Part shown: piece by piece, positions 9,644 to 19,629 of the stretch
Layout: every line of letters starts with the position of its first letter
Position numbering within the stretch: position 1 is the stretch's first letter
DNA from: Asanoa ishikariensis
Lineage (GTDB): Bacteria > Actinomycetota > Actinomycetes > Mycobacteriales > Micromonosporaceae
Assembly (NCBI RefSeq): GCF_900107455.1
Contig: NZ_FNQB01000003.1
Coordinates: 248,001 to 312,000 of the forward strand
Length of the DNA: 64,000 bases
Direction: 5' to 3'
The notes under the pieces: model-generated
Databases searched by the model: none
The model's input: the letters and a program-made list of their open reading frames with translations, nothing else
Told to the model about the DNA's origin: nothing
Made by a program: the position numbers and the translations under genes

Positions 9644-11101
9644 GTGCCTGCTCATGAAAAGCGCGACACGCGCCTGATCCTTCCCGTGCTGCTCCTGGGC
9701 GTCGTGTCGTACGCGCTGATCCAGTCGCTCATCGCCCCCGTCCTGCCGGTGATCCAGCAGGACCTGGGCACGACGCAGAGCACGGTCACCTGGGTGCTCA
9801 CCGCCAACCTGCTCTCCGCGTCGATCTTCACGCCGATCCTGGGCCGCCTCGGCGACCGGGCCGGCAAGGACAAGGTGCTGCTCGTCGCCCTGATCGCCCT
9901 GGCCGCCGGCGCCCTGATCTCGGCCGTCGCACCGAACATCTTTGTGATGCTGGTAGGCCGCGCCCTCTCGGGAGTCGGCGGCGGTGTGCTGCCGTTGGCG
10001 TTCGGCATCGTCCGCGACGAGCTGCCGCGCGAACGGGTCGCCCCCGCCGTCGGCCTGATCGCCGCGCTGCTCGCGATCGGCGCCGGCCTCGGCATCGTCC
10101 TGGCCGGTCCGATCGTCGACCTCCTCGGCTACCGCGCCCTGTTCTGGCTGCCCGCGATCGCGGTCGTGATCGCCGCGGTCACCACCTACTTCCGCATCCC
10201 CGCCTCACAGTCGCGCGCACCCGGCCGGTTCAGTTGGACCGCCTCGGCGCTGCTGGCGCTCTGGCTGGTCAGCCTTTTGGTCGCGCTGACCGAGGCGGCA
10301 TCGTGGGGTTGGGGTTCTTTGCGAGTGCTGGGCCTGCTCGCGGCCGCCGTCGTGCTCCTCGTGACCTGGGTCGTCCTGGAGACCCGCTCGGCGAGCCCGC
10401 TCATCGACATGCGGATGATGCGCGCCCCCGCGGTCTGGACCACCAACCTGGTGGCGCTGCTGTTCGGCATCGGCATGTACGGCCTGATGGGCTTCCTGCC
10501 GGCGTTCATGCAGACTTCTCCGTCTCTTGGCTACGGCTTCGGCGCCAGCGTCACCCGGGCGGGCCTGCTGATGCTGCCGCTGAGCGTGACGATGTTCGTC
10601 TCGGGCCTGGCCGCACCGCGCCTGACCCACCGCTACGGCGCCAAGGGCGTACTCGTCGGCGGCACGGTCTTCGCGGTCGGCTCGTTCGCCCTCCTCACCC
10701 TGGCCCACGGCCAGCAATGGCAGATCCTCGTGTCGATGGCCCTCCTCGGCATCGGCTTCGGAGCGGCCTTCGCGACGATGTCCAACGTGATCGTGGCCGC
10801 GGTACCCGCGCACCAGACCGGCGCCGCGAACGGCATGAACGCGAACATCCGCAGCATCGGCGGCGCGATGGGCGCGGCCGTGATGGCGAGCATCGTCGGT
10901 GCGCACGTGCTGCCGAGCGGCCTGCCCACGGAACGCGGCTACAGCATCGGGTTCGCGGTGCTGGGCCTGGCCTGCGTCGGCGCCGCCCTGGCCGCGCTCC
11001 TGGTGCCACGCAACCACCAGCACGTAGCGGCTCTCCCTCTCAGAGACGAGGAGTCGTACGCGGAGGCGGCCGTGGTCGGTGTCCCGGGTCTGGCCCGCTG
11101 A
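9644..11101 (+). CDS. MFS drug-resistance transporter (DHA2-like)
   Basis: A 485-residue transporter with about 14 predicted membrane helices. It opens LILPVLLLGVVSYALIQSLIAPVLPVIQQDLGTTQSTVTW-like in order, with motif A as GRLGDRAGKDKVLL and motif C-like glycine-rich segment ALLAIGAGLGIVLAGPI, typical of 14-helix drug:H+ antiporters. The GTG at 9644 is used: no in-frame ATG exists nearby, and a -10 box lies exactly six bases upstream. It is probably controlled by the ArsR-like protein just before it. The substrate is unknown. Confidence 0.9.
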   Translation: MPAHEKRDTRLILPVLLLGVVSYALIQSLIAPVLPVIQQDLGTTQSTVTWVLTANLLSASIFTPILGRLGDRAGKDKVLLVALIALAAGALISAVAPNIFVMLVGRALSGVGGGVLPLAFGIVRDELPRERVAPAVGLIAALLAIGAGLGIVLAGPIVDLLGYRALFWLPAIAVVIAAVTTYFRIPASQSRAPGRFSWTASALLALWLVSLLVALTEAASWGWGSLRVLGLLAAAVVLLVTWVVLETRSASPLIDMRMMRAPAVWTTNLVALLFGIGMYGLMGFLPAFMQTSPSLGYGFGASVTRAGLLMLPLSVTMFVSGLAAPRLTHRYGAKGVLVGGTVFAVGSFALLTLAHGQQWQILVSMALLGIGFGAAFATMSNVIVAAVPAHQTGAANGMNANIRSIGGAMGAAVMASIVGAHVLPSGLPTERGYSIGFAVLGLACVGAALAALLVPRNHQHVAALPLRDEESYAEAAVVGVPGLAR

Positions 11102-11125: not shown

Positions 11126-11662
11126 ATGACGGCGATCGTGGGGCTGGTGGAGTCAGATTCGGTCTACATCGGAGGTGACAGTGCCGGGGTCTCCGGCATG
11201 AGCCTGACGGTGCGGGCCGACGCCAAAGTGTTCCGCAAGAAGCGCTACCTGTTCGGCTTCACGACCTCGTTCCGGATGGGCCAACTCATCCGCTACTCGT
11301 TGACCCTCCCCAAGCCGACCGGCGACCTGGACGCCTTCATGTCGACAACCTTCATCGACGCACTGCGTGACTGCCTCAAGACGGGCGGCTGGGCGGCCAA
11401 GGAGAACGAGCGCGAGGAGGGTGGCACGTTCCTGGTGGCCGTGCGAGGGTCACTGTTCGCGATCCACGACGACTACCAGGTGGCCAAGGCCGCGGACGGG
11501 TTCGCCGCCGTAGGGTCTGGGGAACAGATCGCCTTGGGCGCGTTGTACGCGACGGCGGACGCGGGGCTGTCACCACGACGGCGGGTGATGAGCGCCCTGG
11601 CCGCGGCTGAACGGTACAGCGCGGGCGTACGCGGCCCGTTCATCTGCCTCAAGAGTCGATGA
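11126..11662 (+). CDS. Stand-alone Ntn-hydrolase resembling HslV/proteasome beta subunits
   Basis: A 178-residue protein. After removal of Met1 it would expose Thr2, the nucleophile of proteasome-type Ntn hydrolases. The N-terminal pattern MTAIVGLVESDSVYIGGDSAG is close in layout to HslV (TTIV...V.I.GDGQ): Thr at the N-terminus, an Asp in GGDSAG near residue 18, and a lysine near residue 34 (RADAKVFRK) where HslV has its catalytic Lys. A late GSGEQIALGALYA segment matches the family G-S/G-x-x-A-x-G-A pattern. No HslU-like ATPase or proteasome partner is nearby. Similar stand-alone members occur in phages and actinomycetes. The function may be proteolytic or an aminohydrolase activity. No ribosome-binding site is evident. 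Confidence 0.75.
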   Translation: MTAIVGLVESDSVYIGGDSAGVSGMSLTVRADAKVFRKKRYLFGFTTSFRMGQLIRYSLTLPKPTGDLDAFMSTTFIDALRDCLKTGGWAAKENEREEGGTFLVAVRGSLFAIHDDYQVAKAADGFAAVGSGEQIALGALYATADAGLSPRRRVMSALAAAERYSAGVRGPFICLKSR

Positions 11663-11894
11663 TCGTCAAGTCGCTCTGGACGACCGACCACGGTCCTGAT
11701 CCGTGGCTGCGGGAGCGCTTCGCCGCTGACCACCCGTCCGTGGTGACGAGAGCGACGGTCGAGGAGTGGACGTCCTCGTCACGCTGGTGGACGAGCACGA
11801 GGACTTCGACTGCGACCGCGGCGACCTCCATGACGAGCGTTGCCCGAGCCCGGCCTGCCGCCGCCGCCACCTGTGTTGCGTCGAGGGTGGCCAG
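11659..11894 (+). other. Region with a doubtful small ORF after the Ntn-hydrolase
   Basis: An ATG at 11659 overlaps the preceding stop and could encode a 79-residue protein (to 11898). Its first 37 residues look protein-like (IVKSLWTTDHGPDPWLRERF). After that the frame becomes Thr/Ser/Ala-rich, as an out-of-frame read would, while a second frame from the GTG at 11766 reads VDVLVTLVDEHEDFDCDRGDL with several cysteines. This may be two overlapping tiny genes or one frameshifted remnant. I do not call a function. Confidence 0.3.
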
Positions 11895-12161
11895 TTAGCG
11901 GGCGCGAGAACCGGATCGAGGATTCACCTCGATGCCCGGGGTCGGCCGGCGTCGAGGCGAATCCGCGTCGATAGAACCGTACAGAGACATTTCTACTTCG
12001 GACAGGGGAATGTCGACTGGCGCACCCGGGTGATATGCGAACGAAGACCATCCGTTCCTGCGGCGCGTCTCGATGGCGATTGCTTCCATCATGGGCAGCG
12101 AGCGTCTGAGTCCGGCATCGGCTGGGCGGCATGCGTTGAGCAGTGTCGCAAGCGCCGTCAC
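11895..12161 (-). CDS. Small hypothetical protein, divergent from the nuclease operon
   Basis: An 88-residue reading frame starting at GTG 12159-12161, preceded by AAGGAGA at 4-5 bases, a good ribosome-binding site. The longer in-frame ORF upstream is antisense to the nuclease gene and not believed. The product is protein-like (VTALATLLNACRPADAG; SLPMMEAIAIETRRRNGWSS; YHPGAPVDIPLSEVEMSLYG) with a helical N-terminal half. I do not recognise the family. Codon third positions are less G/C-biased than in the rest of the window, which could mean transferred DNA. It is divergent from the four-gene operon and may belong to that accessory region. Confidence 0.5.
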   Translation of the reverse strand: MTALATLLNACRPADAGLRRSLPMMEAIAIETRRRNGWSSFAYHPGAPVDIPLSEVEMSLYGSIDADSPRRRPTPGIEVNPRSGSRAR

Positions 12162-12338
12162 ATCTCTCCTTCGGGGCATCGTTCGAACTAACGCCATCCG
12201 CCACCCGGAAATGATCACGTCGCCTTCTTGGCAATGAAGCACACGCCTGCCGGGAAAGACAAGAACGCGGCGGGCCAGAACGGTCTCGGGCAAACAGCCG
12301 ACTGTAGCGATCAATATCTCCGTGTACGGTCGAGGATC
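12162..12338. promoter_or_regulatory. Divergent intergenic region before the four-gene operon
   Basis: This 177-base gap should hold the promoters of the small minus-strand gene and of the nuclease operon. A TACGGT box (12325-12330) lies 8 bases before the GTG start at 12339, and GAGG lies at 12332-12335; either a leaderless or a short-leader start is possible. I see no clear operator. The base composition is lower in G+C than the flanks. Confidence 0.35.
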
Positions 12339-13421
12339 GTGACCCTGGGGGAGCGGTGGTGGACCAAGCCGCCGCTCGGCCAGGTCAGCTATCTGGCCGA
12401 CGTCGACCCCGCGCTTCTCAGTCTGGGGTTCGATCCATTGCCGGCCGGTGCTCCGGCCATCATCAGGTTTCGGCCGGCGCCAGGGCAGCGGGTCGGGCAG
12501 TACGTCAACGCCTTCCTCGACGCCTTGGACCGGGCCGTGTTGGAGCTCTTTCCGCGCTGGTTGCCAGGTGCCGAACACTTGGACGGGCCGACCAAACTGG
12601 GCATCGCCGCTGTTCGCGCCCTTGCGGCCGGGGTTGCCGCTCGCTCGGATCACTTCGGGCCTTTCCTCGCCGCCACCGCCGAACGTGCCCTGCGCGACGA
12701 TCTGGCTGCCGGGCGGTCACGGTTTCCCGCCGAAGTTCGGGCTCGAGGCCTGGCCCTTATCGTTGCCGATGTCTACGGCCGGGAGTCCGTGGCGCTGCAC
12801 ACCGACGTTCCGAATGGTCTGACGCCGGACGGCGAGCGCGCCCTGGCCGCTGCGGCGGAGTGGCTCGCCCAGCACGGTCGGTTCACGGTGTGGTTGACCG
12901 GCACACCTCTTCGGAGCGTGGACCGCATCCCTTCCGTCCGGATCACGTTGCCGGTCTATTTGACCCGGCTCGCCGCTGAGGCCGGTCCGCGGCCGGGTCC
13001 TGTCGCTGCAGCCGGGCCGGGTCCCGTCGCTGCTGCTCCGCCGGTGCTGACCTACCCGCCGTTGTCCGGCCAGCCGCGCGCGGACAGTGCTGCCGAGCAG
13101 GCACTGGAGCGTGCCCTCGCGCCACACGAGTGGGCGCGAGGCCGCCGCTGGAACGAGGTGCTGGATTGGCACCTCCTCGGTAAGGAATACCGACTTGACC
13201 TCTTCTGGCCGACGGACGGTTTGGTGGTGGAGGTCGACGGCGACGACCATCGGGAACGTTTGAAATACGCTTCCGACCGCCAACGCGACGCCCGGCTGCA
13301 ACTGCTCGGCAAAGACGTTTTGCGCTTCACCAACGACCAGGTCCTGACCGATCCCGCGGCCACGGCCTACGTCATCAGGGATCTTCTGCTGCTTCGCCGC
13401 CGTCCTCTTCGACAGAAATGA
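12339..13421 (+). CDS. DUF559/Vsr-like PD-(D/E)xK nuclease with unknown N-terminal domain
   Basis: A 360-residue protein from GTG 12339; a longer TTG start at 12228 is in frame but adds sequence that does not look coding. Residues 1-225 form a domain I do not recognise (RPAPGQRVGQYVNAFLDALDRAVLELFPRWLPGAE; SDHFGPFLAATAERALRDD). A Pro/Ala-Gly linker with the repeat GPVAAAGPGPVAAA follows. The C-terminal 115 residues match the DUF559/Vsr-like restriction-endonuclease fold: an early SAAEQALERAL glutamate, YRLDLFWPTDG, the core EVDGDDH, then a RDARLQLLGKDVLRFTNDQV helix-strand. It should act as a DNA nuclease or nickase. It is the first gene of a four-gene operon with a 6-base gap to the next. 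Confidence 0.78.
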   Translation: MTLGERWWTKPPLGQVSYLADVDPALLSLGFDPLPAGAPAIIRFRPAPGQRVGQYVNAFLDALDRAVLELFPRWLPGAEHLDGPTKLGIAAVRALAAGVAARSDHFGPFLAATAERALRDDLAAGRSRFPAEVRARGLALIVADVYGRESVALHTDVPNGLTPDGERALAAAAEWLAQHGRFTVWLTGTPLRSVDRIPSVRITLPVYLTRLAAEAGPRPGPVAAAGPGPVAAAPPVLTYPPLSGQPRADSAAEQALERALAPHEWARGRRWNEVLDWHLLGKEYRLDLFWPTDGLVVEVDGDDHRERLKYASDRQRDARLQLLGKDVLRFTNDQVLTDPAATAYVIRDLLLLRRRPLRQK

Positions 13422-13427
13422 GCTTCC

Positions 13428-14378
13428 ATGCCCTCCGATGACCTCTCGGCCCTGACCCCGACCCAGATCAAGGCGCTGAAGGCCCTCTTGACCGAGGGGC
13501 GCGAGGTCGACAACAAGGAGTTGGAGAGCCGTTTCGGCATTTCTCTCACCGGCGCCAACAGTAGGAAATTGGAGGAGCTCGGGCTGGTGGAGGCCACTCG
13601 TTCGAGCCGGCCGTTTTCCCACAAGCTCACGTCGAAGGGCCAGGCGGTGGCCCTGCAACTGAACGACCCAGAGCCGCCACGGGCGTCGAAGCCTGACGTC
13701 CCGAAGTACGACTCCGCCATACCGAAGCTCTCGCCGAACCAGATTCTTGTTCTGGTGGTGCTGATGTCCGAGGCTCGCGAGCTGAACAACAACGAGCTGA
13801 AGGAACTCGCCGGATTCCCGCTCTCCGGCACCGACAACAAGAAGCTGGAACAAACGCTCGGCCTCGTGGAGACCGACCGGTCGCACGCGCCCTACTCCCA
13901 CCAGCTGACCGACAAGGGCTGGTCGCAGGTTCGGAGTCTGCACCTGATGGAACCGCCGAAGGAGTCGAGGTCGGCGACTCGGACTCTGTTGACCCTGCTC
14001 GGCAACATCAACCGGTCGCTGGGACAGTTGCAGACCACCCACGGCGTCAAGCTCAGCCACGGCGAGTTCTTCCGGCGACAGCCGGCTCCGGCTGAGGGCG
14101 GCGCTGCCGAGGTCGTGGACGCCGAATCGGTGGTTCGGAAGGCGTACGCGCTGCTGGCTGGACAACCCGGCGAGTGGGTCGGCCTTGCCGATCTGCGCGA
14201 TCAGTTGCCCGGCTTGTCGCGCGCCGACGTGGACGGGGCGCTGCTGGCTCTGCTCGACCAGGACGGCGTACGGATCATTCCCGTTGCCAACACCAAGGCG
14301 CTCACCGCGCGTGACCGGGCCGCTGCCATCGATATCGGCGGCGAGGCCAACCACGTTCTGTCGATCGGCCACCCGTGA
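13428..14378 (+). CDS. Multi-winged-helix protein of the candidate defence operon
   Basis: A 316-residue protein with two clear tandem winged-helix repeats. The first (residues 8-80) reads LTPTQIKALKALLTEGREVDN, then NSRKLEELGLVEATRS and FSHKLTSKGQAVAL. The second (about 100-178) reads LSPNQILVLVVLMSEARELNN, then DNKKLEQTLGLVETDRS and YSHQLTDKGWSQV. A third winged-helix-like segment (about 235-305) reads VVRKAYALLAGQPGEWVGLA and ADVDGALLALLDQDGVRI. It probably binds DNA or links partner proteins. The gene lies 6 bases after the nuclease gene, and its TGA overlaps the GTG of the ATPase gene, so its dose is tied to both. I know no named family for the full length. Confidence 0.72.
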   Translation: MPSDDLSALTPTQIKALKALLTEGREVDNKELESRFGISLTGANSRKLEELGLVEATRSSRPFSHKLTSKGQAVALQLNDPEPPRASKPDVPKYDSAIPKLSPNQILVLVVLMSEARELNNNELKELAGFPLSGTDNKKLEQTLGLVETDRSHAPYSHQLTDKGWSQVRSLHLMEPPKESRSATRTLLTLLGNINRSLGQLQTTHGVKLSHGEFFRRQPAPAEGGAAEVVDAESVVRKAYALLAGQPGEWVGLADLRDQLPGLSRADVDGALLALLDQDGVRIIPVANTKALTARDRAAAIDIGGEANHVLSIGHP

Positions 14379-17300
14379 TACCGGCCGCCGAACGGTCCGC
14401 ACTGGAGGCACTCCACTTCAACCCGGCGCCAACTCCGGAGGACATCTGGCGGCCGTCGCCGTACGACGTGCCGGAGCTCCACGAGCGGGCGGTCAAGGAG
14501 ATTCTCAGCGGCGTCGGCAAAGCCCGGCGCGACGACACCGTGACCCCGCTGGGCGTCGCACTGCAAGGGCGGGCCGGCTCGGGGAAGACCCATCTGCTGG
14601 GTGCGGTACGCGAGACGATCCAGCGCGCTGACGGCGGCGGCTACTTCTTCCTCGTGAGCATGATCAACGGGCGTACGTTCTGGGAGAGCACGGTCCAAGG
14701 CATCATCGGCGGGCTCGCCCGCGAGACGCTCGGCCTGGGCACGCAACTCAAGACGTTCCTGCGTCGTCTCACGCCGTATCTGGGCATCCGGCCGGAGGTC
14801 CGCGACGCGGTCGTTGGCAACGCCCCGCTCACCCGTGAACACATGGATGCCTTCATCGCCGGGCTGCGCCGGTTCGACAAAGCCGTCGGTCTCGAGTGCC
14901 AGGACACCGCTCGCGCGCTGGTCCTCTACGGATCGCTCGACTTCGACCAACAGGATGTCGGCCTGGCCCACCTCATCTCCGAACCGGCCGAGCCGACGGA
15001 CCGTGCGGAATGGGGCTTCACCCCGCACGTCCGGAAGCCGCAAGAAGTCGTCCGCGACATCTCCCGGCTCATCGCGTTGACGCTGAGCCCCAGCGTGATC
15101 GCGATCGACCAGCTCGACACGCTGTTCGCGCAGAGCGCCATCTCGCTGACCAGCCGGGATGAGGTCTTGGAGTTCGGCCAGGCGGCGGCCGTCGGCCTCG
15201 TCGCCGATGGACTACTGACCCTGCGCGACGTCACGCAGCGCACCGTGGTGGTGATGTCGTGCCTGCCGGACACCTGGGAGTTGCTGAAGCGCAGTGCTCC
15301 CGGGCCGGTCATCGATCGCTTCCGGGAGACGCTGCTGCCCGACCGGATCAACAGCGCCGAGATTGCCCGCATGATCGTGGAGAAGCGGTTCGCCGACGTC
15401 TACGGTGCGCACCACCTCTCGGCGGACTACCCGAGCTGGCCGATCCTTCCGGCAGCGTTCGACGAAGCCCGCCGGTTCACCCCGAGGATCCTTCTCCGTC
15501 GGGTCGACCAACACCTGCGCCGCTGCCTCGACAACGATGAAATCACCGAGTTGCAACGGTTTTCCGAACAGTCGTACACGTCCAAGGAGGACAAGGAGCG
15601 GGAACGGGGCATCGAGGACGGGTCTGCGCTCGAAGAGTTGGACGCCATGTTCCAGCGGCTCTTGCAGGACGCGGACGTACGCGTCGCCCTTCACAAGCAC
15701 GGCGAGGACGTCGCGATGCCGCCGCTGCTCTCGGCGGGCTTGCGTGCGTGGATCGACGAGCGGTCGCCCACCGGCGCCGTCTACAAGCAGGACGCGCCAC
15801 CGAGCGCCAAGCCGGACCTGCACGCGCGTCTCGTCGAAGTGCTCGACGAGGCGACGGAAAACGAGGCGCACTGGGGCTTTCGTGCAATCGCCCACGACAA
15901 TGCGCGTGCGGTCATCACCCGGATCAAGAACGCCTGCACGGCGACCGGCCTGGACCGGGCGATTCCACAGCGCCGGCTGGTGCTATTGCGACGGGGCGAC
16001 TGGCCAAGCGGTACGCGCACCGTGGAGACCGTGAACAGGTTCTTGCAGGACGGTGGCGTGTGGCACAGGATCAGCGACTCTGACCTCAAGGTGTTCGACG
16101 CGTTGCGGCGCATGCAGACGGTTCCGCACGCCTCGTTCGGCGAGTGGCTGGTCTCCCGGAACCCAGCCAGCAACACGCGCCTGTTCCAGGAGCTGTTCGG
16201 CGAACCTGCCGCGCCGCTGGCACCTGACGCGGTGCCTTTGCCGTCCCCCGAGACCGACGCAGCTCAACGGCCGTCGCCCGTCTCAGCGGCGTCGAGTCCA
16301 GCCCCACCGAAAGGGGGCGGTCGCTCGATCCTGCTCGGGCAGGTGATGCGGGAAGAGACCGCGTTCGCCGTGGACCTGGAGTCCCTGCGGCGGCATACTG
16401 TCATCTTTGCGGGCTCTGGCTCCGGCAAGACCGTGCTCATCCGGCGCCTGGTCGAGGAGTGCGCTCGGCAGGGTGTTTCGGCGATCGTGCTCGACCCTAA
16501 CAACGATCTCGCCCGGCTCGGCGACGCGTGGCCCGAGCCACCGGCTGGTTGGAGGGCCGGGGACGACCAGCACGCCCGCGATTACCTGGAGCACACCGAC
16601 GTCGTCGTGTGGACGCCCGGCGTCAGCGGGGGCCGGCCGCTCAGTTTCCAGCCGTTGCCGGATTTCGCGCCCGTCCGTGATTCGCAGGACGAGTTCGACC
16701 AAGCGGTCCGGGCGGCGGTGGAGGCGCTCGCCCCGCGCGCGGGCGTCGGCGGTGCCACGAAGTCCGCCGCGCAGGGCAAAGCGGTGCTCACCGAGGCACT
16801 GCAGGCGTACGCCCGCGGCGGAACCGTCGGGCTGGAGGGCTTTACGGACTTCCTGGGCGACCTGCCTGAGGACGTAAGCCGGATGAGTAGAGCCGGCAAG
16901 CTCGCACACGACCTGTCCGAGACCCTCAAGGCCGCGATGGTGAACGACCCGTTGTTCGGCGGCAAGGGCTCGTCGGCGGATCCGGGAGTGCTGCTGACGC
17001 CGCCTCCTGGCAAGCGTGCGCGGGTTTCGGTGATCAGCTTTGTCGGGCTCATGTCCGACTTGGAGAAGCAGGGGTTCGTCAACCAGCTCCAGATGGCGCT
17101 GTTCACGTGGCTCAAGCGGCACCCGGCCGGCGACCGGCCATTGGGCGGGCTGTTCATCATGGACGAGGCGCAGACCCTGGCGCCCTCGACCGGCACGACC
17201 GCCTCCACGGCGAGCACGATCACGTTGGCATCGCAGGCCCGCAAGTACGGCCTCGGCCTGGTGTTCGCCACCCAGGCGCCGAAGGGCCTGCACAACCAGA

Positions 17301-17560
17301 TCTCGGGCAACGCCACCACGCAGTTCTTCGGCCTGCTGAACGCCCCGGCGCAGATCGACGCGGCGCGCGAGCTGGCCCAGGCCAAGGGCGGCCGGCTGCC
17401 CGACATCGGCCTGTTGGGCAGTGGCGAGTTCTACGCGGCTGGCGAGGGATTCTCCTTCGTCAAGGTCCGCACACCGCTGTGTCTGACACACCACCCCAAG
17501 GCTCCGCTGACCCCGGAAGAGGTTCTGGAGCGTGCCCGCCGTCAGCACGACAGAAAGTGA
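14375..17560 (+). CDS. Double P-loop protein: AAA-type ATPase fused to HerA-like helicase/translocase
   Basis: A 1061-residue protein with two separate P-loop domains. The N-terminal one has Walker A GRAGSGKT (65-72), Walker B SVIAIDQLD (240-248) and a sensor-like strand RTVVVMSCLPD; it looks like the AAA/STAND ATPases of BREX- or Dnd-type defence operons. A helical middle (about 400-600) has no clear match. The C-terminal one has Walker A AGSGSGKT (679-686), Walker B LFIMDEAQ (926-933) and a sensor GLVFATQAPKGL (961-972), the form of HerA/FtsK/VirB4-like DNA translocases (DUF87 type). It probably moves along DNA and drives the nuclease. Start is GTG 14375, overlapping the previous stop by 4 bases. 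Confidence 0.85.
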   Translation: MIPAAERSALEALHFNPAPTPEDIWRPSPYDVPELHERAVKEILSGVGKARRDDTVTPLGVALQGRAGSGKTHLLGAVRETIQRADGGGYFFLVSMINGRTFWESTVQGIIGGLARETLGLGTQLKTFLRRLTPYLGIRPEVRDAVVGNAPLTREHMDAFIAGLRRFDKAVGLECQDTARALVLYGSLDFDQQDVGLAHLISEPAEPTDRAEWGFTPHVRKPQEVVRDISRLIALTLSPSVIAIDQLDTLFAQSAISLTSRDEVLEFGQAAAVGLVADGLLTLRDVTQRTVVVMSCLPDTWELLKRSAPGPVIDRFRETLLPDRINSAEIARMIVEKRFADVYGAHHLSADYPSWPILPAAFDEARRFTPRILLRRVDQHLRRCLDNDEITELQRFSEQSYTSKEDKERERGIEDGSALEELDAMFQRLLQDADVRVALHKHGEDVAMPPLLSAGLRAWIDERSPTGAVYKQDAPPSAKPDLHARLVEVLDEATENEAHWGFRAIAHDNARAVITRIKNACTATGLDRAIPQRRLVLLRRGDWPSGTRTVETVNRFLQDGGVWHRISDSDLKVFDALRRMQTVPHASFGEWLVSRNPASNTRLFQELFGEPAAPLAPDAVPLPSPETDAAQRPSPVSAASSPAPPKGGGRSILLGQVMREETAFAVDLESLRRHTVIFAGSGSGKTVLIRRLVEECARQGVSAIVLDPNNDLARLGDAWPEPPAGWRAGDDQHARDYLEHTDVVVWTPGVSGGRPLSFQPLPDFAPVRDSQDEFDQAVRAAVEALAPRAGVGGATKSAAQGKAVLTEALQAYARGGTVGLEGFTDFLGDLPEDVSRMSRAGKLAHDLSETLKAAMVNDPLFGGKGSSADPGVLLTPPPGKRARVSVISFVGLMSDLEKQGFVNQLQMALFTWLKRHPAGDRPLGGLFIMDEAQTLAPSTGTTASTASTITLASQARKYGLGLVFATQAPKGLHNQISGNATTQFFGLLNAPAQIDAARELAQAKGGRLPDIGLLGSGEFYAAGEGFSFVKVRTPLCLTHHPKAPLTPEEVLERARRQHDRK

Positions 17561-17565
17561 CTCGC

Positions 17566-18954
17566 ATGCCTTCGGAACGCTCTCGTCGTGAACACATGCT
17601 CGACGGCCGCCGGGTCCGCATCGTCGACCTGATCGACGCCGGGTACCTGAAACCGGGCGACGGCCTCTACTACCACCAGCGCATCGGCGAGCCGCCGCAC
17701 GAGGCGACGGTGACGGAGCGGGGTCGGCTCCGACTCCTTGACGGGCGGGAGTTCAACACGCCGTCCGCGGCCGGCGCCGCGGCCGCCGGGGTGCGCGCCG
17801 TGCCTGGATGGTCGGTTTGGCGGCGTGGCCTTCACGGGCCGACCCTGCACCAACTGCGTCAGCAGTTGCTGAAGTCCGTCGCTGACGAGGTAAGCGCGGA
17901 CAGCGAGCTACCGACTCCGAAGGACGACCTGGTGCGCCGCCGGTTCACGTTCTTGGAGGACACCCATGCGAAGGCGGCTGCTGGCGAGCCCACATCCGTG
18001 ACCGTGCGCGAGCTGATCACGCTCTGGGACCTGACTGACCGCGACCGCGCCGCCAGCGCTCAGGTCGAGGCCGACCTTGCCAACCACAACCTGACCACCG
18101 CACCGGACTTTCGGGCGGTCGGTCTGGACAGCACCGTGCGCCTGTTGCAGTTGCCCGAGCGCCGTGTCGAGGAGATCAGTGCCGCGCCGGATGAGGCGGA
18201 GACGAAGGTTGCGGGCGCGATCGACGAGGAGAGCGTCGACATCGGGCTGACGCTGGGCAACCTCTTGTCGGAGGACTTGAGACTCGCATGGGTTCCGCCG
18301 ACCGCGTCGTTCGAAGAAGTAATCACGATGCTGCAGATCAACGACTATTCACAGGTTGCGGTCCTGGCCAACCAGTACACGCTGCACGGTGCGATCTCGT
18401 GGAAGTCGATCGCCGAGGCCAAGCACCTGAACGCCGACGCGACCATAAGCGACGCTGTGCATCCCGCCCAGGTGTTCGACTACGACCGACGCCTGCTCGA
18501 CGTGCTCGCCACGCTGCAGGAGAACGAGTTCATCTTCGTCCGCGACTTTGACCGCAAGATCAGCGGAATCGTCACCGCCGCCGACGTGGTACGCAAGTAC
18601 GACGACACGGCCATCCCGTTCTTCCTGATCGGCGAGGTGGACCAGGAGCTGCGCCAGTTGATCGTGAACACCTTCGACGAGGACACCGTCCGCGGCGCGT
18701 GCAATTCCGCCGGGATTGGGTTCAAGTCGTTGGAAACCATGACGGTTGGTCAGTACCAGGCCGTTCTCGCGAGTCCGGACTGCTGGCAGCAGTTGGGCTG
18801 GCCACTGCACCGGGCCCAGTTCGTCAAGAGGCTCGACGAGATCCGCCAGGTACGGAACAACGTCATGCACTTCAACCCGGATCCGCCGAAGCCCATTGAC
18901 GTTGCCAAGCTGCGAAATTTCCTTCGCCTCATCCGCCGCTACCGCCGGCACTAA
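17566..18954 (+). CDS. RAMA-CBS-HEPN protein, probable effector of the operon
   Basis: A 462-residue protein starting at ATG 17566, 5 bases after the ATPase stop. Residues 13-88 match a RAMA domain (restriction enzyme adenine methylase associated): VRIVDLIDAGYLKPGDGLYYH, a short ATVTERGRLRLLDG hairpin, and the end PGWSVWRRG. Residues 235-345 form a pair of CBS motifs (DYSQVAVLANQYTLHGAIS; ENEFIFVRDFDRKISGIVTAADVV), which usually bind adenine nucleotides. Residues 355-460 form an all-helical domain ending in RNNVMH (430-435), the Rx4H motif of HEPN ribonucleases, and resemble the Swt1-type HEPN group. The likely role is sensing of modified DNA or nucleotides coupled to RNA cleavage, that is, an abortive-infection effector. 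Function is inferred. Confidence 0.8.
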   Translation: MPSERSRREHMLDGRRVRIVDLIDAGYLKPGDGLYYHQRIGEPPHEATVTERGRLRLLDGREFNTPSAAGAAAAGVRAVPGWSVWRRGLHGPTLHQLRQQLLKSVADEVSADSELPTPKDDLVRRRFTFLEDTHAKAAAGEPTSVTVRELITLWDLTDRDRAASAQVEADLANHNLTTAPDFRAVGLDSTVRLLQLPERRVEEISAAPDEAETKVAGAIDEESVDIGLTLGNLLSEDLRLAWVPPTASFEEVITMLQINDYSQVAVLANQYTLHGAISWKSIAEAKHLNADATISDAVHPAQVFDYDRRLLDVLATLQENEFIFVRDFDRKISGIVTAADVVRKYDDTAIPFFLIGEVDQELRQLIVNTFDEDTVRGACNSAGIGFKSLETMTVGQYQAVLASPDCWQQLGWPLHRAQFVKRLDEIRQVRNNVMHFNPDPPKPIDVAKLRNFLRLIRRYRRH

Positions 18955-19095
18955 CCGCGCGACGAAGAGCAAGGGTGGAGCGCCCCGGCACGCGCTGTCA
19001 CCTGAGAGTTCAAACCGCCGGCCAGGAGCGTCGGGACGTCTCTGGTGGGGTTGGAGTTCAACGACTCGATCGGATACGAGAACCTGCTCGCGGAG
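18955..19095. other. Gap between convergent genes
   Basis: These 141 bases separate the RAMA-CBS-HEPN gene from the convergent helical-repeat gene. I see no good hairpin, RNA gene or coding frame. Confidence 0.4.
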
Positions 19096-19629
19096 TCAGC
19101 TCGGTGCCGCCTTGCGGCGCAGCTCGCGGATGACGCCGTGGCGTTTCAAGGCCCAGACCAGCCGGCGCGCGGGGCGGTGCCGCACGAGCAAGAGCGTCAC
19201 CTGCCCGACCAGCGTGAGCCGGTGGCCGCGGAACTCGTCCTCCGCCACCTTCCACAGCAGCGCCCGGATCTTCGGCGACTCCAGGGCCTCCCGGGTCTCG
19301 GTCCGGACGGCGGGATCGTCCAGGGCGGACCGAACCGACGACGCCAGACCAGGGCGGTCGGCGAGGTTGTCCGAGATCGCTGTGACAAGGCTGTGCCGGA
19401 TGTCGTCGGTCTCGATCAGCAGCAGCACCGCGCGGCGGATCTCGGCGGTCTCCAGCGCCGACCGTAGGAGCTCCATCGAACGGCGCCGCACCTCGTCGTC
19501 GTGGTCGTCGACCGCCAGCGCGGCGAGCAGGGACGTCACTTCGTCGAGGTCGATCAGGTGCTGCAGGCCGGCCCGGAAGTCGGGTCGTTCCCACGCGCCT
19601 AGCAGCACCTTGACCACGTTGCGATCCAT
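19096..19629 (-). CDS. Helical-repeat hypothetical protein
   Basis: A 177-residue protein. I choose the ATG at 19627-19629 because a GTGAGGG sequence lies about 3 bases upstream on the coding strand and longer starts add poor sequence. It is almost all helix, with HEAT-like units such as DEVTSLLAALAVDDHDDEVRR, ETAEIRRAVLLLIETDDIRHS and DPAVRTETREALESPKIRALL. The C-terminus is rich in Arg/Lys (RRLVWALKRHGVIRELRRKAA), so binding to nucleic acid or membrane is possible. No family is recognised. It lies between the defence candidate and a secreted protease, and belongs to neither operon by strand and spacing. Confidence 0.65.
   Translation of the reverse strand: MDRNVVKVLLGAWERPDFRAGLQHLIDLDEVTSLLAALAVDDHDDEVRRRSMELLRSALETAEIRRAVLLLIETDDIRHSLVTAISDNLADRPGLASSVRSALDDPAVRTETREALESPKIRALLWKVAEDEFRGHRLTLVGQVTLLLVRHRPARRLVWALKRHGVIRELRRKAAPS

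Follow-up and report, generated by a model that had tools for sequence, protein, structure and literature searches.

The locus considered here raises the question of whether four tightly packed genes of Asanoa ishikariensis, called A, B, C and D, constitute a single defence system or a combination of separate ones. The window analysed is the whole stretch of 64,000 nt, which corresponds to positions 248,001-312,000 of contig NZ_FNQB01000003.1 (assembly GCF_900107455.1). Coordinates confirm the one-strand packing given in a preliminary description of this DNA: A and B are separated by 6 bp, B and C overlap by 4 bp (GTGA), and C and D lie 5 bp apart (Table 1). The domain identities proposed there for the four genes are supported by profile matches, weak ones in the case of B. 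An alternative start of gene A exists at 12228 (TTG), and the alignments of its homologues begin near the 12339 start. A scan for promoters and terminators returned nothing exceeding chance. Our analysis replaces the four-gene unit by two testable units, A-B-C and D. We consider it likely that A-B-C is a modular anti-invader DNA-restriction cassette of the HerA/AAA kind, and that D is an independent RNase-type defence gene.

Table 1. Positions of the four genes and of the inserted block in the window.
Feature	Position	Strand	Description
Gene A	12339-13421	+	PD-(D/E)XK nuclease of the DUF559 type at the C-terminal end; N-terminal region conserved
Gene B	13428-14378	+	DNA-binding-type protein; winged-helix-like units in tandem, C-terminal region conserved
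Gene C	14375-17560	+	Fusion of 1061 aa: N-terminal AAA ATPase (Orc/Cdc6/STAND-like), middle part (~395-640), C-terminal HerA-type motor
Gene D	17566-18954	+	RAMA domain joined by a linker to a CBS pair; helical domain of the HEPN type with Rx4H (R430-H435) at the C-terminal end
Block missing from congener G396	11663-19124	no strand	From gene order and empty-site comparison

The insertion-like character ascribed to the locus is supported by an empty site: congener G396 is without a block of 7,462 bp that includes all four genes, and the convergent genes flanking it are there 9 bp apart. The GC3 of genes A-D is 0.765-0.863, against a minimum of 0.872 among 41 other genes. Since the block is precisely absent from the congener and its genes have a low GC3, it was probably acquired. 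The small flanking gene (11126-11662) does show the unusual codon use noted for it (GC3 of 0.860 versus a mean of 0.935 in 41 other window genes), but it is located outside the block and is present in a congener. The precise presence/absence between congeners would also suit a mobile element whose spread depends on A-C and which carries D as cargo. We regard this as highly improbable, because no direct or inverted repeats of at least 8 bp were found between the two block ends, no recombinase occurs among the four genes (the scan covered A-D), and other cassettes are found in differing contexts. A phage-borne origin was rejected: a search of 50,697 phage records gave no match to gene C, and the 35 matches to the C pattern in IMG/VR viral contigs include no relatives.

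Gene A scores 38.2 bits with Pfam DUF559 (cut-off 20.6), and an intact PD-(D/E)XK nuclease is predicted, the domain occupying residues ~320-383 of protein P0001 (numbering from 12228). Residues D324, E335, D337 and H341 are kept in 18 of the 19 alignment rows (window copy counted), one row having a gap. Profile searches with gene B gave winged-helix matches, all weak. Its residues 9-88 are repeated at 101-181, and the window copy has one additional N-terminal repeat. For gene C, the C-terminal end matches Pfam DUF87/HerA with 42.9 bits (cut-off 23.2), and its motor is matched by HerA chains from the PDB. The N-terminal part scores 29.7 bits with AAA_16, slightly under the cut-off of 32.6, which its relative L216 exceeds (33.1). 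Residues K71, T72, D245, K685, T686, D930 and E931, which represent both ATPase sites, are conserved in all 35 rows (window copy counted); R315 and R371 of the AAA part are invariant as well. The region 418-612 has a pLDDT of 38.4 in a single-sequence structure model.

A-B-C is a conserved cassette, and B-C is its core. Among 65 other C loci, B stands alongside C in 61, A in 36, and D in none; the value for A is a lower bound, since some loci scored as lacking it (L073, L077, L208, L217) stop at a contig edge or close to one. This count leaves out L198 (the window itself), L199-L203, and the duplicates L204 and L205, and it contains close relatives, e.g., one second copy shared by six genomes of a single genus. 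Genes of the fetched loci were called with our own codon-score caller, so that their starts may be off, and B of L227 was observed as an open frame only. The nearest cassettes (L231 and L232; 68% identity for A, 70-71% for B and 74-76% for C) have the same A-B-C spacing and are without D. The gene order is kept in Tsukamurella, where the products are annotated as DUF559, hypothetical and DUF87 and adjoin a PIN-VapB pair, and on a Methylobacterium megaplasmid from a distant class, where an open frame with a winged-helix-like start takes the middle place. The conservation of gene order is borne out across actinobacterial loci and in Methylobacterium for A-B-C only. Pairwise distances of A correlate with those of C (r 0.78, 24 loci, 0/2000 permutations), and those of B do so more weakly (r 0.53, 46 loci, 0/2000 permutations).

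The partners of the core are informative with respect to its function. In three loci, B-C is directly preceded by PDC-M02A and PDC-M02B (best E 1e-100 and 4.8e-141), and in one locus an AbiU/AIPR abortive-infection protein is located directly downstream, 27 bp after C (E 9.7e-75). The joining of B-C by these genes supports a defence role of the core. Enrichment near defence genes, a check suggested in the preliminary description, was addressed by a crude PADLOC test, which gave no clear signal outside the operon itself. The near genes (110 of 154) yielded 64 families, among the listed ones of which PDC-M02B and general helicase models lead with two members each, and the far genes (110 of 281) yielded 14 families with one member each; counting families instead of proteins and excluding genes below 100 or above 700 aa, this comparison shows no clear surplus of PADLOC matches near the cassettes.

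Motors of the HerA/FtsK group are known to perform maintenance work of the DNA-end or replicon processing type, and B-C, with or without A, might represent such a device for the chromosome or a plasmid. A housekeeping role would suit the data as well, since 154 of the 250 family genomes contain the AAA part of C (the own genome is included, and relatives without HerA may be counted) and B-C without A occupies stable positions in several related genomes (L062, L065, L066, L068, L069). Another B-C copy is present in the genome itself, as well as in the five congeners examined. However, the class-wide spread is patchy (46 of 394 genomes, own included), the neighbourhoods of the cassettes vary between loci, the cassette reaches a megaplasmid of a distant class, and the direct operon partners are PDC-M02A/B and AbiU. 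We consequently judge the maintenance role to be rather improbable and retain the restriction cassette as the preferred reading of A-B-C.

Comparison with the known systems qualifies the statement that no named system has this gene set. It stands for PADLOC and NCBIfam: neither PADLOC 2023 nor NCBIfam 2026 contains a dedicated model for A-B-C, common as the cassette is in the family. The core, however, closely resembles the predicted Orc/Cdc6-HerA capture systems, and D has a named relative in DS-11. HerA-DUF4297, Sir2-HerA and comparable pairs combine a HerA motor with a partner effector, as A-B-C does. In our cassette, however, HerA is no stand-alone protein with one effector but forms the C-terminal half of a fusion with an AAA ATPase, accompanied by a winged-helix-like protein and by effectors of other families. 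Against the mad8 model of MADS, the HerA half of C scores 86.8 bits, but no further mad model matches A, B, C or D, and membership in MADS was rejected. Membership in BREX or Dnd was rejected likewise, the sole matches being DndH for C (7.9 bits) and DpdF of Dpd for A (15.7 bits). The PADLOC candidate PDC-M02, which in the three loci mentioned occupies the slot held here by A, has no match among the four genes of the window.

Judged by domain composition, A-B-C most closely resembles the Orc/Cdc6-HerA/FtsK capture systems, predicted by Rakesh, Aravind and Krishnan in 2024 (PMC10853773); membership was tested in part. Both have an AAA ATPase coupled to HerA, a nuclease gene and a separate fast-evolving multi-wHTH protein, and the domains of the capture systems may be spread over one or several proteins. 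The motor of C agrees with this description in its DUF87 match, HerA chains and fully conserved motifs, and B has repeated wHTH-like units, for which family matches are weak. In the two sections consulted, an inactive REase is placed between the AAA core and the wHTH, and the active REase belongs to one of two families; partners of the PDC-M02, AbiU or RAMA-CBS-HEPN kind do not come up there, and DUF559 is absent from the main text. The literature searched contained no experiments on A-B-C and, among the papers listed, no evident one on the DUF559-DUF87 gene set. We infer the defence function of A-B-C itself, as well as every biochemical step proposed for it. The winged helices of B and the AAA part of C would recognise incoming DNA and load the complex onto it, the HerA part would assemble into a ring and pump the DNA, and nuclease A would cut the DNA pumped; the slot of A could be filled by other effectors.

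Gene D matches RAMA with 80.1 bits and contains two CBS stretches (Pfam). Its residues 148-455 cover the NCBIfam model NF053863 (DS11_antiphage) end to end with 250.5 bits, below the curated cut-off of 260. R430 and H435 of the Rx4H motif are kept in all 49 rows (window copy counted). Y261 is aligned with Y157 of an E. coli relative, which carries the residue number mutated in DS-11, and is aromatic in 48 of the 49 rows. The structure model (pLDDT 90.8) has fold matches that include CBS pairs, and the 50 listed of its 572 matches contain no HEPN chain. DS-11 is a proven RNA-cutting anti-phage protein of the CBS-HEPN type that works alone in E. coli (PMC13092281). It shares with D the CBS pair, the CBS-site tyrosine and the HEPN Rx4H, while D adds the N-terminal RAMA domain and scores under the curated cut-off. 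These sequence features make gene D a relative of DS-11 with a fused RAMA domain, and it shows that the DS-11 module also occurs joined to a modified-base sensor domain. We suppose that the RAMA part would read a modified base or another DNA feature, and that the CBS pair would bind an adenine nucleotide and release the C-terminal HEPN RNase, which probably serves as a growth-arrest back-up.

One may suggest that the four genes form a single system in this strain, with A-B-C acting first, against DNA, and D as a built-in back-up, switched on once A-B-C is overcome or the DNA is protected by modification. The common strand, the short C-D distance and the absence of the whole block from the congener agree with this suggestion, and the AbiU/AIPR protein found at the equivalent place elsewhere offers a parallel for a back-up effector following C. 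Moreover, among the places listed, at least two genomes (G403 and G484, from a single other genus) have D at ~15 kb from A-B-C, which means that the two are not always far apart. The distribution of D nevertheless speaks against the four-gene system proposed initially. No C occurs in the fetched stretch of any of the 105 D loci (103 distinct, with L083/L178 and L120/L242 as duplicates); the RAMA part is reached in 56 of the 105, the remainder being more distant CBS-HEPN relatives, and in 19 of the 105 the shorter flank is below 5 kb. The best 80 of 90 relatives were kept in the D search; the codon-score caller missed D in seven of these 80 loci, and all 80 match by tblastn. The 103 distinct D loci without C accord with defence by a single protein, as in DS-11. 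Across the 250 family genomes, own genome included, D and C are independent (20/31 vs 134/219, p = 0.84), C being scored by its AAA part, possibly with relatives lacking HerA. With D absent from the other C loci and DS-11 functioning alone, we consider the single four-gene system unlikely and have set it aside. With a spacing of 5 bp, D may yet cooperate with A-B-C in this strain.

With the A-B-C cassette and an independent D as the preferred reading, a broader one can be put forward tentatively. B-C may be a general defence chassis for the sensing or capture of foreign DNA, with exchangeable effectors before B or after C: the DUF559 nuclease, AbiU/AIPR, the PDC-M02 pair, a divergent protein of WD40 repeats and, in the present locus, a CBS-HEPN RNase that reads modified bases. 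If so, the window would contain a two-effector version, in which DNA is cut first and RNA serves as the back-up target. The known and candidate defence effectors that join the B-C core in some loci mark a widespread actinobacterial locus as a candidate immune system.

As regards the wider surroundings of gene D, its pattern has 66 matches in viral contigs, one of which is a distant relative, and 13 of the 80 D loci include, within the stretch fetched, a gene similar to a DruE-like helicase.

The position and spacing of the four genes, as given in the preliminary description, were borne out by the sequence of the window, the intergenic distances being 6, -4 and 5 bases. Pfam profile searches detected the DUF559 nuclease domain in gene A, an AAA domain in the N-terminal part of gene C (the AAA_16 match being just under the cut-off), a HerA domain in its C-terminal part, and the RAMA domain and CBS pair in gene D. 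The winged-helix matches of gene B are weak in profile searches, and an internal repeat is evident in it. In alignments that include the window row, the residues of both ATPase sites of C are kept in 35/35 rows, and the active-site residues in 18/19 rows for A (the remaining row has a gap) and in 49/49 for D.

Judged from sequence, A-B-C is a conserved cassette. Counting A. ishikariensis, a search of 394 genomes of the class found C in 46, and one of 250 family genomes found its AAA part in 154. Among 65 C loci fetched from outside the window, B adjoins C in 61 and A is present in 36. The nearest cassettes (L231 and L232; identity 68% for A, 70-71% for B and 74-76% for C) have the gene order and spacing of the window and are without D, and L244 has an enlarged B as in the window. 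The Tsukamurella cassette (L226) lies in a ribosomal-protein gene cluster, next to a PIN-VapB pair, in a record that is labelled plasmid and appears chromosomal; by eye, the place of L071 is similar. On a megaplasmid of Methylobacterium aquaticum the order is likewise A, then an open frame of winged-helix-like type, then C. Distances of A and of B agree with those of C beyond 2000 permutations, to which common descent of the hosts contributes.

The joint search for conserved gene order recovered the A-B-C part of the proposed four-gene defence operon but D in none of the 65 C stretches. Relatives of D were searched with a RAMA-CBS-HEPN alignment in genomes of 84,980 species; 80 loci were kept of 90 relatives found and were fetched with up to 10 kb per side (shorter near contig ends), and these stretches hold no C match. 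Likewise, C occurs in none of 105 D stretches (103 distinct), 56 of which extend into the RAMA part. In the 250 family genomes, D is found in 31, the AAA part of C in 154 and both in 20, a number that matches the chance expectation (odds ratio 1.15, p = 0.84). In genome G095, which has both, they lie at 0.76 and 5.99 Mb. These data argue against A-D being one system. Counting against full separation, two genomes of one genus (G403, G484) have ~15 kb between D and A-B-C. Less probably, D may act jointly with A-B-C in the A. ishikariensis strain.

Within the cassette, gene neighbourhoods indicate that B-C is the core and that its partners vary. In L067 and L068 the same genes flank the cassette on both sides and A is present in L067 only, while L065 shares their upstream side and has no A. 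In L075, L104 and L116, B is directly preceded by PDC-M02A and PDC-M02B, which PADLOC (a defence-system model library) lists as a candidate pair for phage defence; PDC-M02A is a DUF4365 protein in the one copy scanned with Pfam. In L216, an AIPR protein matching AbiU (E 9.7e-75) starts 27 bp after C, and in L222 C is followed by a partial gene with no family match. A gene of ~1,300 aa is divergent from B-C in seven loci (L059, L113, L209, L211, L213-L215), as is one of 1,081 aa in L212; the three scanned (L113, L209, L212) encode WD40-repeat proteins. Several of these long genes begin, by eye, with a trypsin-like stretch that has no family match. A probable role of B-C in defence is supported mainly by the direct partners (PDC-M02A/B and AbiU/AIPR); the main rival is that B-C represents a maintenance device. 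Across a wider set of neighbours, PADLOC matches were not clearly more numerous in 110 near genes than in 110 far genes.

D was assigned to HEPN because of its match to the NCBI model of DS-11, a proven CBS-HEPN anti-phage protein (residues 148-455, 250.5 bits, cut-off 260), its helical C-terminal part and its Rx4H motif. Its predicted structure has a mean pLDDT of 90.8, and the best 50 of 572 fold matches are nearly all CBS-pair proteins, several with bound AMP, ATP or c-di-AMP. DS-11 is reported to lose defence in Y157A and HEPN mutants (PMC13092281). In a 365 aa E. coli relative of D, which may or may not be DS-11 itself, Y157 falls opposite Y261 of D in the alignment, and an aromatic residue occupies the Y261 position in 48/49 rows. 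Relatives of D carry an N-terminal RAMA, another stretch or none. In L083, L086, L094 and L096 a different stretch of ~150 aa replaces RAMA, with no Pfam match in the two scanned (L083, L086). The relative at L078:9141-11156 has a long N-terminal extension, RNase H-like by eye, and its true start may be internal.

Mobile "HerA/FtsK capture" systems have been predicted to comprise an Orc/Cdc6 ATPase, inactive and active REases, wHTH proteins and HerA, either fused in a single polypeptide or spread over several (PMC10853773), and PMC12839542 returns to this theme and counts RAMA among reader modules. In its HerA, AAA, nuclease and winged-helix-like parts, A-B-C agrees with the plan given in PMC10853773, and is therefore filed as a probable variant, a candidate member that probably works like a capture system. 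Among the papers listed by literature searches on DUF559-DUF87 systems, and on RAMA with HEPN or CBS, none evidently describes this set. In the likeliest mechanism, B together with the AAA part of C would find foreign DNA and load onto it, the HerA part would pump it and A would cut it, while D, with a trigger of its own, would cut RNA and stop growth; the anatomy alone is observed.

Window positions 11663-19124 (7,462 bp) are missing from the congener G396, where 9 bp separate the peptidase-like gene upstream from the convergent gene downstream (19096-19629 in the window). The stop codon of the peptidase-like gene is exactly where the left alignment ends. No repeats of at least 8 bp shared by the two block ends were seen, and the scan, which covered genes A-D of the block, found no recombinase. 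GC3 of A-D is 0.765-0.863 versus a mean of 0.935 (minimum 0.872) for 41 other window genes. D is absent from all five congeners searched; some of their C relatives are orthologues of the second B-C copy of the A. ishikariensis genome. Gain of the block in A. ishikariensis is likelier than its loss in G396. The small flanking gene with unusual codon use, earlier ascribed to the island, does have low GC3 but adjoins the inserted block outside its bounds.

ParA-like and Rho_N-like genes accompany D in 16 of the 80 D loci; overall, a ParA-like ATPase occurs in 19 and a Rho_N-domain-like protein in 16, always with the ParA-like gene. In 13/80 loci the fetched stretch holds a gene resembling a DruE-like helicase (~2,140 aa), and six of these loci also have a UvrD/GajB-like gene.

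Gene flanking the inserted block and companions of D in fetched loci (L numbers)
Feature	Location	Remarks
HslV-like peptidase gene, small	window 11126-11662	PHROG 1040, 70.6 bits; low GC3
Cassette of ParA-like ATPase, Rho_N-like protein, then RAMA-CBS-HEPN	L138, L141-L145, L150, L151, L154, L163, L172, L179, L184, L195 and two more	D near 10001 in most
Gene resembling a DruE-like helicase	L119, L120, L122, L124, L126, L129, L130, L133, L134, L136, L137, L139, L174
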